A program made the translations under genes and the position numbers. The notes beneath the pieces are model-generated. The model searched no databases. It saw only the letters and a program-made list of their open reading frames with translations, and was not told the DNA's origin. A stretch of DNA of 34,905 bases from Prevotella sp. (lineage in GTDB: Bacteria > Bacteroidota > Bacteroidia > Bacteroidales > Bacteroidaceae): the NCBI GenBank assembly GCA_017389705.1, contig JAFPEE010000176.1, positions 1-34,905 of the forward strand. The letters are read 5' to 3'. This document shows positions 28,504-33,585 of the stretch, in pieces. Numbering within the stretch: the stretch's first letter is position 1; every line of letters starts with the position of its first letter.

Positions 28504-28511
28504 TATATTTG
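28504..28511 (+). promoter_or_regulatory. -7 element of the potassium channel gene
   Basis: TATATTTG (28504-28511) fits TAnnTTTG; no TTTG is found at the right -33 spacing. It is divergent from the copA promoter 45 bases away. It supports the ATG at 28539 over an upstream TTG at 28509, which would overlap the promoter itself. Confidence 0.45.
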
Positions 28512-28538
28512 CAACCGAATTGCAAAAAAGTCATCAGT

Positions 28539-29354
28539 ATGAAGAAACCACATTGGCTTGAGAAAGAGCGACTCTATAGCATTATGTTCGAGTCGGAAAA
28601 ACCCATAGGACGAATCTTCGATATGGCGGTCATGATAGCGATATCGCTGAGTATCATTATCTCCTTTATTGAGACTGTCCCCTCGCTGGCTCATACGTAT
28701 AAGTTTATACTGGAGATACTGGAGTATCTGCTCACCTTTTTCTTTACCTTAGAGTACATAGGCCGTGTGTACTGCTCACCACGCAGAAAGGAATATGTGC
28801 TGAGCTTCTTTGGCATTATTGACTTGCTGTCCATCTTGCCGCCATACCTCTCTTACTTCCTGCCTAATGCGAGGTACATGATTTTGCTGCGTTCATTCCG
28901 CTTCATCCGTATTTTTCGTGTATTCAAGTTGTTCAGCTTCATCAATGAGGGCTACATACTGATGCACTCGCTTCAGAAGAGTCTTACCAAGATATCCGTC
29001 TACTTCTTGTTTGTGCTGATTCTGGTTACTTGCTTGGGAACGCTGATGTTTATGGTGGAAAGTGGTCAGCCCAACACGCAGTTCACCGACCTGGCGACAT
29101 CGGTCTATTGGGCTATTGTCACGATGACCACCGTAGGATATGGCGACATTACCCCAGTGACACCTGTCGGGCGGCTGTTGTCGGCATTTGTCATGCTGCT
29201 GGGTTATACCATCATTGCCGTACCTACGGGTATCGTTACTGCAAATATTATCGACGAGACGAAGGAAAAGCCTAAGGATGGCCATTGTCCGCGTTGTGAC
29301 GCTATGGTTCGCAAGCACGACCACTACTGTTCGCACTGCGGAGAAAAACTGTAA
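28539..29354 (+). CDS. Voltage-gated-type potassium channel (ion transport family)
   Basis: A 271-residue inner-membrane channel with the Kv architecture. Segments S1-S4 occupy about residues 25-145; S4 carries regularly spaced arginines (LLRSFRFIRIFRVFKLF). The pore loop TMTTVGYGDITPVT contains the selectivity filter TVGYGD, and S6 follows (LLSAFVMLLGYTIIAVPTGIV). The C-terminal 30 residues are a zinc ribbon with two CxxC motifs (CPRC and CSHC). Physiological role is not known: membrane potential or osmotic control is likely. The frame is open upstream to a TTG at 28509, but the ATG is preferred. Monocistronic. Confidence 0.9.
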   Translation: MKKPHWLEKERLYSIMFESEKPIGRIFDMAVMIAISLSIIISFIETVPSLAHTYKFILEILEYLLTFFFTLEYIGRVYCSPRRKEYVLSFFGIIDLLSILPPYLSYFLPNARYMILLRSFRFIRIFRVFKLFSFINEGYILMHSLQKSLTKISVYFLFVLILVTCLGTLMFMVESGQPNTQFTDLATSVYWAIVTMTTVGYGDITPVTPVGRLLSAFVMLLGYTIIAVPTGIVTANIIDETKEKPKDGHCPRCDAMVRKHDHYCSHCGEKL

Positions 29355-29443: not shown

Positions 29444-29475
29444 TTTGTGTGTTTCGCAAAAAAGCGTTATTTTTG
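29444..29475 (+). promoter_or_regulatory. Promoter of the aromatic amino acid operon
   Basis: TTTG (29444-29447), 20 bases, then TATTTTTG (29468-29475): a full consensus match. Transcription would begin near 29482, about 21 bases before the leader peptide. Confidence 0.8.
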
Positions 29476-29502
29476 CAGCCAGTTAGCAAAACTAAGAGAA
29501 AT

Positions 29503-29580
29503 ATGACAATGTTAAACGCTTACTTTTACGGCTATTATTTTTACTTTGCAGGCACCTGTGGAGCGGAAGACCGTATGTAA
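29503..29580 (+). CDS. Tyr/Phe-rich leader peptide of the pheA operon
   Basis: A 25-residue ORF starting MTMLNA and containing YFYGYYFYF (residues 7-15), in which eight of nine residues are Tyr (five) or Phe (three), then AGTCGAEDRM. It lies 21 bases after the predicted transcription start and 85 bases before pheA, immediately before a terminator. This is the classical form of a leader peptide whose translation speed reports charged tRNA-Phe and tRNA-Tyr levels. It is too short for usual gene finders. Confidence 0.88.
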   Translation: MTMLNAYFYGYYFYFAGTCGAEDRM

Positions 29581-29657
29581 GAAATAAAGAGAAGAAATAA
29601 AAAAGAAAAATGAAATAAGGTCCCGCTTCACAACCCAGTGAAAGCGGGAATTTTTTT
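29558..29657 (+). promoter_or_regulatory. Transcription attenuator: antiterminator and terminator
   Basis: The terminator is TCCCGCTTCAC (29621-29631) with GTGAAAGCGGGA (29639-29649), followed by seven T (29651-29657). The 5' arm with its upstream bases GG (29619-29631) can alternatively pair with GTGGAGCGGAAGACC (29558-29572), which overlaps the leader peptide codons just after the Tyr/Phe run: GTG-CAC, G-T wobble, AGCGG-CCGCT, AA bulge, GACC-GGTC. A ribosome stalled on the Tyr/Phe codons would leave that segment free (antitermination); one that reaches the stop at 29580 would cover it and let the terminator form. Confidence 0.85.
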
Positions 29658-29665
29658 AAGAAGAT

Positions 29666-30508
29666 ATGAAGAGAATAGCAATACAAGGACTGATAGGGTC
29701 GTTCCACGATATTGCCGCCCACCTGTACTTCGAGGGTGAGCAGATACAGCTTATCTGCTGCTCGACGTTCGAGGATGTGTTCAGCAACATCAAGCAAGAT
29801 CCCACGGCCATCGGCATGCTGGCCATAGAGAACACCATAGCAGGCTCGCTGCTACATAACTACGAGCTGTTGCGCGACTCCGGTACTACCATTGTGGGTG
29901 AGCACAAGCTGCACATCTCGCACTGCATCTGCTGTCTGCCAGATGACGACTGGGATACGATAACTGAGATTCATTCGCACCCTGTGGCCCTGATGCAATG
30001 TCGTCAGTTCCTGGCTCAGCATCCGCAGATGAAGCATGTAGAGGCTGAGGATACGGCAGGCAGTGCCAAGATGATTGCCGAAGGCCAGAAGAAAGGGTGG
30101 GCTGCCATCTGTCATGCCGAGGCAGCCAGACTCTACGGACTGAAAGTGCTGGAAGACCACATAGAGGACAACAAGCATAACTTCACACGTTTCCTGGTGG
30201 TGTCAAACCCTAACAAAGCCGACCTGCTTCGTCCGCTGACGGAGGCCAACAAGGCCAGCATCGTCTTCTCGCTGCCTCATGAGGAAGGCTCCCTGTCGCA
30301 TGTGCTGGCTATCCTCTCGTTCTACAAAATCAACCTGACGAAGATTCAGTCGCTGCCCATTATCGGAAGGGAATGGGAATACCTGTTCTATGTTGATGTG
30401 ATGTACGACGACCTGACACGCTACCGTCAGTCTATTGACGCGATAATCCCACTGACCAAAGACTTTAAAATATTAGGAGAATACAAAGATGGAAAACAAA
30501 CCATGTAA
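29666..30508 (+). CDS. pheA: Prephenate dehydratase
   Basis: A 280-residue cytoplasmic enzyme that converts prephenate to phenylpyruvate for phenylalanine. The catalytic part (about 1-185) has AIENTIAGSLLHNYELL and the conserved TRF triad at 174-176 (HNFTRFLVVS). The C-terminal ACT domain (about 195-275) should bind phenylalanine, though the usual ESRP motif reads QSLP here. There is no fused chorismate mutase; that activity is in the DAHP synthase two genes on. It is the first full gene of the operon, after the attenuator, and overlaps the aminotransferase by 20 bases. Confidence 0.95.
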   Translation: MKRIAIQGLIGSFHDIAAHLYFEGEQIQLICCSTFEDVFSNIKQDPTAIGMLAIENTIAGSLLHNYELLRDSGTTIVGEHKLHISHCICCLPDDDWDTITEIHSHPVALMQCRQFLAQHPQMKHVEAEDTAGSAKMIAEGQKKGWAAICHAEAARLYGLKVLEDHIEDNKHNFTRFLVVSNPNKADLLRPLTEANKASIVFSLPHEEGSLSHVLAILSFYKINLTKIQSLPIIGREWEYLFYVDVMYDDLTRYRQSIDAIIPLTKDFKILGEYKDGKQTM

Positions 30509-31679
30509 GGTACAACCTGCAGAGAGACTTAACTTAGTAAGTGAATATTACTTCAGTCGTAAGCTGAAGGAGGTGGCCCAGCTGAATGCCGAGGGCAAGG
30601 ACATTATCAGCCTGGCTATAGGCAGTCCTGACATGCCTCCCTCGGAAAAGACCGTTGAGAAGCTGTGTGAGGTGGCCCATCAGCCCAGTGCCCACGGCTA
30701 TCAGCCTACGATGGGTACGCCAGAGCTTCGTGAGGCCATGGCAGGCTTCTATAAACGTTGGTATCATGTAGACCTGGATGCCAAGAGCGAACTCCTGCCG
30801 CTGATTGGTTCGAAGGAGGGTATTCTGCACGTCACGCTGGCCTTTGTCAATCCTGGCGACGAGGTGTTGGTGCCCAATCCGGGCTATCCCACGTACACGT
30901 CTTTAAGTAAGATTCTGGGTGCGAAGATTGTAAACTACGACCTGCGTGAAGACAATGGCTGGCAACCCGATTTCGACGAGTTGGAGAAGATGGATCTGAG
31001 TCGTGTAAAACTCATGTGGACGAATTATCCCAATATGCCGACTGGTGGACGAGCCCAGATGGAGACCTACGAACGTCTGGTGCAGTTTGCTAAGGAGCAC
31101 GGCATCGTAGTGGTCAACGACAACCCCTACAGCTTCATTCTGAGCGAGGAGCACCTGAGTATCCTGCAGGTTCCTGGAGCCAAAGAATGCTGCATCGAGT
31201 TCAATTCGATGTCGAAGAGCCATAACATGCCTGGTTGGCGTGTCGGCCTGTGCGCCTCGAATGCTGAGTTCATTCAGTGGATTCTGAAGGTACAGTCGAA
31301 CATCGAGAGCGGTACCTTCCGTGGCATCCAACTCGCTGCTGCTGAGGCTTATAAGAACGATGAGGCTTGGCACCATGAGTTTAATATCGAAACCTATGCG
31401 CGTCGTCGTCAGTGGGCCGAGAAGATTATGGATGTCTTGGGTTGTACGTATGACAGACAGCAGGTGGGTATGTTCCTGTGGGGCAAGATTCCTGCTGACA
31501 TCAAGAACGTAGAAGACTTGACCGAGAAAGTCTTGCATGAGGCTCGTGTCTTCATCACCCCAGGCTTCATCTTTGGGAGCAATGGCGAACGCTACATCCG
31601 CATCTCCCTTTGTGCCAAGGAAGAGAAAATAAAAGAGGCTTTGGAAAGGATAAAGAAAACCCTCGAAATGTCGAAATAA
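30489..31679 (+). CDS. Class I/II aminotransferase (aromatic operon)
   Basis: A 396-residue PLP enzyme of fold type I. The cofactor lysine is Lys243 in SMSKSHNMPGWR; Asp211 (VVVNDNPYS) contacts the PLP ring nitrogen, and the NPGYPTYTSL segment (129-140) is conserved. Relatives include LL-diaminopimelate and aspartate/aromatic aminotransferases; the position between pheA and the DAHP synthase-mutase gene argues for transamination of phenylpyruvate and 4-hydroxyphenylpyruvate, or of prephenate. It overlaps pheA by 20 bases. It ends in a CGAAATAA element that is then tandemly repeated downstream. Confidence 0.93.
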   Translation: MENKPCKVQPAERLNLVSEYYFSRKLKEVAQLNAEGKDIISLAIGSPDMPPSEKTVEKLCEVAHQPSAHGYQPTMGTPELREAMAGFYKRWYHVDLDAKSELLPLIGSKEGILHVTLAFVNPGDEVLVPNPGYPTYTSLSKILGAKIVNYDLREDNGWQPDFDELEKMDLSRVKLMWTNYPNMPTGGRAQMETYERLVQFAKEHGIVVVNDNPYSFILSEEHLSILQVPGAKECCIEFNSMSKSHNMPGWRVGLCASNAEFIQWILKVQSNIESGTFRGIQLAAAEAYKNDEAWHHEFNIETYARRRQWAEKIMDVLGCTYDRQQVGMFLWGKIPADIKNVEDLTEKVLHEARVFITPGFIFGSNGERYIRISLCAKEEKIKEALERIKKTLEMSK

Positions 31680-31729: not shown

Positions 31730-32794
31730 ATGGAACTGGAACTTCAACCATTGAATTTACCGAGTGACAACGAACGCCCCTTCGTCATTGCAGGACCCTG
31801 CAGTGCCGAGACTGAGGAGCAAGTGATGAACACAGTCCGCCAGCTGGCCATGAAGGGTTGTCATAACTTCCGTGCAGGAGTGTGGAAACCGCGCACCAAG
31901 CCAGGTGGCTTCGAGGGTAATGGCGAGAAGGCGCTGCCCTGGATGAAACAGGTAAAAGAGGAGACACACATGCTCATCTCTACCGAGGTGGCCACCCCTG
32001 AGCATGTTGAGCTGGCTTTGAAATACGATATGGACATCCTGTGGATTGGTGCCCGTACTACTGCTAACCCCTTTGCCATGCAGGCTTTGGCTGATGCCTT
32101 GAAGGGTGTCGACATCCCTGTCTTTGTGAAGAATCCTGTGAACCCTGATTTGGAGCTATGGATTGGTGCTATGGAGCGACTCAACCAGGCAGGCATCAAG
32201 CGCTTGGGAGCCATCCATCGCGGCTTCTCCAGCTTCGAGCAGAAAATCTACCGTAATGCGCCTATGTGGCAGATACCCATCGAGTTGCATCGTCGTATAC
32301 CTGATCTGCCTATCATCTGCGACCCCAGTCATATCGGAGGCCGTCGTGAGCTGATAGCCCCCCTGTGTCAGCAGGCTATGGACTTAGGTTTCGATGGTCT
32401 GATTGTCGAGAGCCACTGCGATCCTGACAAGGCTTGGAGCGATGCCCGTCAGCAGGTAACGCCAGAGGTGCTCGACTACATCCTGGGCTTGCTGATTATC
32501 CGCGATGAGCACGTCACTACTGAGAGCATCCAGCAACTGCGTAAGCAGATTGATTCCCTCGACAACCAGCTGATGGAGCTGCTGGCTAAGCGTATGGAGG
32601 TCTGTCGTGAGATTGGTCGCTACAAGAAGGAACATAATATGACTGTATTGCAGACGAGTCGTTACAACGAGATTCTGGAGAAGCGTGGTGTGCAGGGCTC
32701 GCTGACAGGCATGTCGCCCGACTTCGTAGCTAAGGTATTCGAGAATATCCACGAAGAGTCAGTAAGACAACAAATAGAAATCGTCAACCAATGA
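31730..32794 (+). CDS. Bifunctional DAHP synthase / chorismate mutase
   Basis: A 354-residue two-domain enzyme. Residues about 1-260 are a DAHP synthase of the KDO8P-like type (PFVIAGPCSAET, WKPRTKPGGFEG, GAIHRGFSS, CDPSHIGGRRE), which joins phosphoenolpyruvate and erythrose-4-phosphate in the first step of the shikimate pathway. Residues about 265-354 are an AroQ-type chorismate mutase helix bundle (LRKQIDSLDNQLMELLAKRMEV, IGRYKKEHN). The fusion places the first step and the branch step under one control. It overlaps tyrA by four bases. The arrangement, mutase at the C-terminus, is usual in Bacteroidetes. Confidence 0.94.
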   Translation: MELELQPLNLPSDNERPFVIAGPCSAETEEQVMNTVRQLAMKGCHNFRAGVWKPRTKPGGFEGNGEKALPWMKQVKEETHMLISTEVATPEHVELALKYDMDILWIGARTTANPFAMQALADALKGVDIPVFVKNPVNPDLELWIGAMERLNQAGIKRLGAIHRGFSSFEQKIYRNAPMWQIPIELHRRIPDLPIICDPSHIGGRRELIAPLCQQAMDLGFDGLIVESHCDPDKAWSDARQQVTPEVLDYILGLLIIRDEHVTTESIQQLRKQIDSLDNQLMELLAKRMEVCREIGRYKKEHNMTVLQTSRYNEILEKRGVQGSLTGMSPDFVAKVFENIHEESVRQQIEIVNQ

Positions 32795-33585
32795 AAATTC
32801 TTGTTTTAGGTGCAGGCAAGATGGGAAGCTTCTTCATCGACCTGCTGAGTTTCGACCACGAGGTGGCTGTTTTTGAGCGCGACCCTAAGCGCATGCGGTT
32901 TACCTACAACTGTCAGCGTTTTACCAGCTATGACGAGATACGCGAGTTCAAGCCTGAGTTGCTGATCAATGCAGTGACGCTGAAGTATACCATCCCAGTG
33001 TTTGAAGAGGTGATGCCCTATCTGCCTCAGGATTGTATCATCAGCGACATTGCTTCGGTAAAGACCGATTTGAAGGATTTCTATGAGCAGACAGGGCGTA
33101 GCTACGTGTCTACACACCCCATGTTTGGTCCTACGTTCGCCAATCTGCAACAGCTCAGCGAGGAGAACGCCATCATCATCAGCGAGGGCGACTACATGGG
33201 TCGCATCTTCTTCAAGGACCTCTACCAGAAACTGGGACTGAACATCTACGAGTACACCTTCGAGGAGCACGACAAGACGGTGGCTTACTCTTTGAGTATC
33301 CCCTTCGTGTCGACCTTCGTCTTTGCTGCCGTCATGAAGCATCAGGACGCGCCAGGTACCACCTTTAAGCGCCATATGCGCATAGCCAAGGGGGTGCTGA
33401 ACGAGGACGACTACCTGTTGCAGGAAATACTCTTCAACCCCTATACCCACGACCAGGTGTCGCAGATTCGTACGGAGCTGAAGGAACTCCTGGAAATCAT
33501 CGACAATAAGGATGCCCAGGGTATGAAAGGTTATCTGACGAAGATTCGCAATAATGTGCGGCGCGACATCGAGATTAAGCGCTGA
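32791..33585 (+). CDS. tyrA: Prephenate dehydrogenase
   Basis: A 264-residue NAD(P)-dependent oxidative decarboxylase that converts prephenate to 4-hydroxyphenylpyruvate for tyrosine. The N-terminal GAGKMGSFF nucleotide-binding loop, SDIASVKT and STHPMFGPT are TyrA hallmarks. It has no ACT or mutase domain. It starts within the preceding stop (ATGA). Its own stop overlaps the pepD 3' end on the other strand by 11 bases, so no room remains for an intervening terminator. Confidence 0.93.
   Translation: MKILVLGAGKMGSFFIDLLSFDHEVAVFERDPKRMRFTYNCQRFTSYDEIREFKPELLINAVTLKYTIPVFEEVMPYLPQDCIISDIASVKTDLKDFYEQTGRSYVSTHPMFGPTFANLQQLSEENAIIISEGDYMGRIFFKDLYQKLGLNIYEYTFEEHDKTVAYSLSIPFVSTFVFAAVMKHQDAPGTTFKRHMRIAKGVLNEDDYLLQEILFNPYTHDQVSQIRTELKELLEIIDNKDAQGMKGYLTKIRNNVRRDIEIKR

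Follow-up and report, generated by a model that had tools for sequence, protein, structure and literature searches.

A candidate two-amino-acid attenuator upstream of the pheA operon in Prevotella and related Bacteroidota

The window analysed here is a 34,905-nucleotide stretch of DNA from Prevotella sp. (contig JAFPEE010000176.1) that carries pheA, a class I/II aminotransferase gene, a gene for DAHP synthase fused to chorismate mutase (DAHPS/CM) and tyrA in that order (Table 1). The encoded PheA protein is 99% identical to its counterpart in a goat abomasum Prevotella MAG and 97% identical to those of named Prevotella strains, and the gene order is the same at all 73 near loci with at least 3.6 kb of DNA after pheA (duplicates included). 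An ion channel gene (PF00520) is found at 28509–29354, its product ending in a CPRC...CSHC motif that we take to resemble a zinc ribbon.

Table 1 Features of the pheA operon and its leader region in the window.
Feature	Position	Strand	Description and basis
Bacteroidota-type promoter	29444..29475	+	TTTG (29444–29447), 20 nt, TATTTTTG (29468–29475); motif match
Leader peptide ORF, 25 codons and stop	29504..29581	+	encodes MTMLNAYFYGYYFYFAGTCGAEDRM; read from sequence and translation
Control-codon run YFYGYYFYF (five Tyr and three Phe)	29522..29548	+	read from sequence
Protector (1:2) hairpin	29544..29563	+	CUUUGCAG/CUGUGGAG, 29544–29551 with 29556–29563; leader RNA MFE and centroid
Antiterminator 5' strand (strand 2), within leader ORF	29557..29572	+	duplex with 29619–29632
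Purine-rich linker, leader stop codon to terminator	29582..29618	+	read from sequence
Strand 3, common to antiterminator and terminator 5' arm	29619..29632	+	folding and duplex energy
Intrinsic terminator	29621..29657	+	hairpin 29621–29649, T tract 29651–29657 (seven T); predicted
pheA, prephenate dehydratase	29666..30508	+	Pfam PF00800, E 6.6e-58
Class I/II aminotransferase	30489..31679	+	Pfam PF00155, E 7.8e-60
DAHP synthase fused to chorismate mutase (DAHPS/CM)	31730..32794	+	Pfam PF00793 and PF01817
tyrA, prephenate dehydrogenase	32791..33585	+	Pfam PF02153, E 1.5e-10

An initial annotation of this DNA had proposed a 25-residue leader peptide containing YFYGYYFYF, a Rho-independent terminator ahead of pheA, and pairing of 29558–29572 with 29619–29631. 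All three were recovered. Eight of the nine codons in the run specify Phe or Tyr, and the terminator hairpin, with one bulged A, has a folding energy of −16.3 kcal/mol, its T tract ending 8 nt 5' of the pheA ATG. The antiterminator duplex, now delimited as 29557–29572 with 29619–29632, comprises 14 pairs and a two-base bulge at −23.3 kcal/mol, and none of 100 shuffles was as good. Beyond these elements we add a protector hairpin, a promoter of Bacteroidota type and the taxonomic spread described below. The protector hairpin, assessed in the window leader alone, partly hides the antiterminator strand in both the MFE and the centroid structure. The promoter carries TTTG at the −33 place, which we take to be an element of Bacteroidota promoters. 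The attenuator hairpin was absent from the output of a generic promoter and terminator scan, probably owing to its bulge; the promoter model of that scan is not of the Bacteroidota type. Around hisG, two chorismate-binding genes, the homoserine dehydrogenase gene and ilvD of the window genome (about 1.5 kb each way), no similar attenuator was seen, a result that says little given that the look covered ATG starts and dense runs only and that some of these operons begin outside the loci.

The predicted antiterminator and terminator helices exclude one another. The MFE structure of the whole leader consisted of the terminator and the protector hairpin, and that of the RNA from 29553 onward, from which strand 1 of the protector hairpin is removed, was the antiterminator; folded alone, 29553–29635 gave a z score of −5.65. 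A ribosome was then modelled with an assumed footprint that extends 15 nt 5' and 12 nt 3' of the first nucleotide of the codon in the A site. When that codon was 12 (Tyr), 13 (Phe) or 14 (Tyr), the antiterminator in the full leader RNA had a probability of 0.93, 0.49 or 0.56, respectively, compared with 0.14 at codon 11 and at most 0.02 at the remaining codons, and with the ribosome absent or at the stop codon the probability of the terminator was near 1.

To place the leader in a comparative setting, pheA genes were located by scanning named genomes (best 80 of 530) and by searches at the levels of genus, family, order and phylum, in which 163 of 200, 71 of 81, 43 of 99 and 102 of 118 genomes, respectively, had a match. 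The 250 upstream regions collected (duplicates included) comprised 110 near regions including the window (90 distinct sequences), 60 further regions from the genus, 40 from the family, 28 from the order and 12 from the phylum; all but the near regions were picked by choice, and 11 of the 12 phylum-search picks lie in the window's class, with one outside. The small ORF of the initial annotation proved widely conserved. Scored as at least six Phe/Tyr within 10 residues, a Phe/Tyr-rich leader was detected in 240 of the 250 regions (near 108/110, genus 57/60, family 39/40, order 25/28, phylum 11/12), a level reached by none of 750 composition shuffles and by 12 of 250 reverse strands. Two of the ten regions without a leader (L013 and L047) are cut by contig ends. 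Outside the window's class a leader was present at one of four loci (L250, but not L313, L314 or L315), a thin sample.

The remaining elements accompany the leader. A terminator of −7 kcal/mol or lower, sought by a finder that does not demand a T tract directly after the stem, followed the leader in 232 regions, and in 231 of the 250 these were joined by antiterminator pairing of −8 kcal/mol or lower. At most one in 100 region shuffles gave as good an antiterminator duplex in 222 of the 232 regions tested. Scanning of 239 regions revealed a TAnnTTTG box upstream of 228 leaders, compared with 13 of 239 shuffled segments; in 182 of the regions the box was accompanied by TTTG at the −33 place. 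Residues outside the Phe/Tyr run differ between families. The linker from the leader stop to the terminator was A- and purine-rich in all five sets: between a point 30 nt beyond the run and the terminator, its mean A content was 57% in the nearest set and 46–50% in the four others. Such a linker may keep the RNA open.

The position of strand 2 relative to the reading frame was next compared between genera. Within the genus, the strand-2 core occupied one leader frame at 153 of 158 loci, where it is mostly read C-E-A. Among 38 loci of the family set, in which 39 of 40 loci come from other genera, the core was in another frame within the ORF at 26, mostly read V-K-R-E, lay across or past the stop codon at 8, shared the Prevotella frame at 2 and was not found by pattern at 2. 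The antiterminator motif is thus kept while its reading frame changes between genera, indicating that it is constrained as RNA. The pattern failed at 27 of 36 order and phylum loci because the arms differ there, and in the order set the distance from the end of the run to the stop codon ranged from 9 to 75 nt. Both Tyr synonyms are freely used, and Phe is mostly encoded by TTT in the nearest set.

Base changes breaking the antiterminator in related genomes, which the initial annotation had named as counter-evidence, were generally absent: of the 207 distinct leaders compared, 199 had native partners whose pairing was stronger than the median for 120 swapped pairs. The initial annotation had also proposed a look for covariation in both stems, and it was found in one. 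Two terminator columns covary (C-G 53 / T-A 44 and C-G 57 / T-A 32 in 99 genus rows, as raw counts that ignore relatedness), but the inner antiterminator pairs hardly vary in the 104 distinct genus rows, and this invariance within the genus leaves no covariation visible in the antiterminator core. The outer antiterminator pairs were standard in 60, 64 and 72 of the 104 rows at three columns, pointing to the lack of a fixed register; other outer columns tried gave 93 of 104 at a fourth and at most 10 at three more, kinship again ignored.

The stall model was extended to 210 distinct leaders. With full-length free RNA, the terminator was favoured in 204 of them, and at equilibrium some stall position favoured the antiterminator in just 67, so that the switch must depend on timing during transcription. 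On the premise that the switch is set ahead of synthesis of the terminator 3' arm, a truncated-transcript model was devised after the full-length equilibrium model, and the results of both are given here. In transcripts ending before the 3' arm, 192 of 210 leaders had strand 3 paired when the ribosome stood at one or more codons of the run and released when it stood at some position further on. Strand 3 was paired in the untranslated truncated leader as well in 177 of 210, and the protector hairpin alone therefore does not explain termination without translation. On the simplest view of these models, the decision between the helices would be kinetic.

We then asked how the leader relates to the genes behind it. 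DNA after pheA was examined at 40 other loci (6–7 kb each, save 2.4 kb for L315), comprising 2 without Tyr in the run, 8 without a leader, 10 Phe/Tyr controls and 20 new pheA loci; a pheA was called clustered if the aminotransferase, DAHPS/CM or TyrA gave a tblastn match on the same strand. Leaders were present at 27 of the 40 loci, 4 with a lone pheA and 23 clustered, with a TyrA match at 17 of the latter. The four lone pheA leaders (L256, L257, L297 and L299), from four different families, have 0, 0, 1 and 0 Tyr in an 11-residue run, versus at least two Tyr in the run of 22 of the 23 clustered leaders, L301 with one Tyr being the exception. Two further Tyr codons occur near the end of the L257 leader, outside the run, and the antiterminator of L297 is weak (−7.9 kcal/mol). 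The difference has a Fisher P of 0.0003, which is inflated by the choice of the first 20 loci; among the 20 new loci, at most one Tyr was found in 2 of 2 lone versus 1 of 13 clustered leaders. The 13 loci without a leader were 7 lone pheA genes, 5 clustered ones and L315, where the DNA was too short; of the 28 clustered loci examined, the 5 without a leader include 3 picked for that reason. Leader composition thus tracks operon content, which supports the proposal of the initial annotation that the operon senses both tRNA-Phe and tRNA-Tyr.

Genomes in which pheA is split off or undetected extend this comparison. In all 8 cases where the leader region is visible (L276, L277, L278, L286 and L291–L294), aminotransferase, DAHPS/CM and tyrA genes without pheA retain a leader containing Phe as well as Tyr, with tyrA on another contig in L278; a further locus, L284, starts at the aminotransferase, its leader region falling outside the visible DNA. 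Terminator and antiterminator were detected by script in 6 of these 8 leaders, L278 having no good U tract and L286 being a case where the script picked another hairpin. In G302, a lone pheA follows a Phe-only run (MRRNSFRFFFFFAFFF...) and the aminotransferase-DAHPS/CM-tyrA operon follows MIKNISVFAYFYYYFYFSKK. G292 is similar, with MTRFFTHFFFFFTQQ before pheA and MNNTFGYYAFYYYFFYNN before a tyrA-like gene and DAHPS/CM. DAHPS/CM feeds both Phe and Tyr and pheA only Phe, and the leader pattern therefore fits a sensor for the products served. Among the 11 genomes read with neither prephenate dehydratase (PDT) nor TyrA detected, none had such a leader within 900 nt of its lone DAHPS/CM gene, although a divergent tyrA could be missed by this detection.

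Ten genomes of the same genus (G003, G010, G017, G026, G061, G075, G076, G084, G145 and G266), 94–99% complete, have an intact DAHPS/CM with pheA and tyrA undetected, and to judge from their gene content they are probable Phe/Tyr auxotrophs. In one of them (L289 in G061), a hairpin with a T tract, matching the attenuator terminator in sequence type, lies just 5' of the lone DAHPS/CM gene, with leader ORF, pheA and tyrA not found; it is perhaps an attenuator fossil, or perhaps the terminator of the preceding gene.

Trp codons also occur in or beside the run, in 4 of 11 class/phylum, 4 of 25 order, 1 of 39 family, 0 of 57 genus and 5 of 108 near leaders (L043, L056, L065, L066 and L081, which share one run, and L221, L229, L232, L236, L241, L242, L244, L245 and L303). 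Trp was present anywhere in the leader in 9 of 13 further clustered leaders. Leaders of this kind possibly read the third aromatic amino acid as well, although the numbers are small.

Several other readings of the element were weighed against these data. In one, the attenuator senses Phe only, and the Tyr codons are tolerated one-base neighbours of Phe codons with no role of their own. Enterobacterial pheA leaders indeed use Phe codons, and F and Y exchange at some leader positions. Nevertheless, we regard this as very unlikely, since Tyr is as common as Phe (1090 Y versus 995 F in 240 leaders, duplicates included), the antiterminator of the window is most probable with the ribosome stalled at a Tyr codon, and Tyr is scarce where pheA stands alone and retained, alongside Phe, where the operon lacks pheA. 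A small functional protein, for example a membrane peptide that is aromatic-rich by chance and is followed by an ordinary terminator, would account for the amino acid conservation of the peptide among the nearest loci, which takes in the C-terminal part as well as the run. This fits poorly with the wider comparison, in which the stretch after the run is shifted to another frame or shortened in other genera while the RNA motif is kept, the spacing between run and stop varies severalfold in the order set, residues outside the run differ between families, and the leader is missing before the lone DAHPS/CM gene; its chances seem to us slighter still.

Least probable of all is control of the terminator by another leader device, such as a T-box, a riboswitch or a protein-bound attenuator, to which the ORF would be incidental. 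The terminator and its competing helix exist as that reading demands, but the strand able to pair with the terminator 5' arm comes after the Phe/Tyr run in 231 of 250 regions. Moreover, no Rfam family, including Bacteroid-trp (RF01692) and T-box, matched at gathering score anywhere in the window or in 12 of 13 relatives' loci, and none lay over the leader in any of the 13. The one match was Flavo-1 at L246:454–531 (78.6 bits), about 400 nt upstream of pheA and outside the leader. The arrangement is thus best read as a transcription attenuator of the classical, ribosome-mediated kind with a sensor for two amino acids, an assignment that we hold with high confidence.

The classical attenuators of enterobacteria, trpL, hisL and pheL, consist of a leader ORF with codons for the operon's product, followed by protector, antiterminator and terminator helices. 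The window leader shares with them the ORF with operon-product codons and the order of the helices. It differs in mixing Phe with Tyr control codons ahead of an operon for the synthesis of both amino acids, in having strand 2 inside the ORF in a frame that shifts between genera, and in matching no Rfam leader model at cut-off. Weak, sub-threshold matches over the leader include Thr_leader (RF00506) at 16.0 bits (E 1.2) and Phe_leader (RF01859) at 14.0 bits (E 9.7) against cut-offs of 55; both families are amino acid attenuators as here, and the window leader is a member of neither. Attenuation has reportedly been the subject of a comparative study by Lopatovskaya and others.

The closest precedent comes from Flavobacterium psychrophilum, also a member of the Bacteroidetes, in which a structured 5' element of the same gene, pheA, is common to other Flavobacteriaceae and has no Rfam hit, and strong clues of leader-peptide attenuation precede amino acid operons (PMC9723704). 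The excerpts of that report also name the promoter consensus TAnnTTTG and describe flavobacterial messages as lacking Shine-Dalgarno sequences, and they make no mention of dual Phe/Tyr sensing, an antiterminator comparison or a link to operon content (PMC9723704). For the pheA gene this report is the earlier one. Small ORFs in long 5' UTRs of Bacteroides thetaiotaomicron have been called reminiscent of leader peptides (PMC7366714), and Bacteroid-trp (RF01692), which from its name precedes trp genes, is a putative cis-regulatory RNA in Bacteroidetes (PMC2864571), like the present leader, yet has no match in the window. No Phe/Tyr leader is described in the excerpts of these three papers (PMC9723704, PMC7366714 and PMC2864571). 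Nor was a Phe/Tyr leader of this operon among the matches listed, as titles and abstract openings, in a search on Bacteroidota leader peptides and attenuation; attenuators of Bacteroidetes may have been mentioned earlier in subscription journals.

The ORF, the possible structures, their conservation, the coevolution of the strands, the promoter motif and the operon are features of the DNA and of its comparison; from them we infer the start site, ribosome stalling, its timing, early termination of transcription and a response to each of the two amino acids. In the proposed pathway, RNA polymerase would start near 29480 and transcribe the leader ORF while a ribosome translates it. When charged tRNA-Phe and tRNA-Tyr are plentiful, the ribosome would pass YFYGYYFYF and cover strand 2, leaving strand 3 free, so that the terminator folds and transcription stops before pheA. 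Scarcity of either charged tRNA would stall the ribosome in the run, so that it covers strand 1; strands 2 and 3 would then pair ahead of synthesis of the terminator 3' arm, allowing transcription of the pheA-aminotransferase-DAHPS/CM-tyrA operon.

On balance, we favour the broader proposition that the pheA/tyrA leader is a two-input sensor across the class, with a codon mix that evolves together with the controlled genes: Phe and Tyr before dual-product operons, Phe alone at lone leader-bearing pheA genes, no leader in the absence of pheA and tyrA, and Trp added in some outer lineages, where all three aromatic amino acids may be read. The mechanism belongs to an old class; what looks new is the combination of two amino acids in one sensor, the distribution of that sensor across the bacterial class and the way it varies with operon content. 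The arrangement stands before most of the pheA genes read here, in a class whose messages lack Shine-Dalgarno sequences, as stated for flavobacteria in the excerpts of PMC9723704, and the leader offers a direct test of transcription-translation coupling in that class. The natural splits of the operon suggest that selection fits the sensor to what the downstream genes produce.
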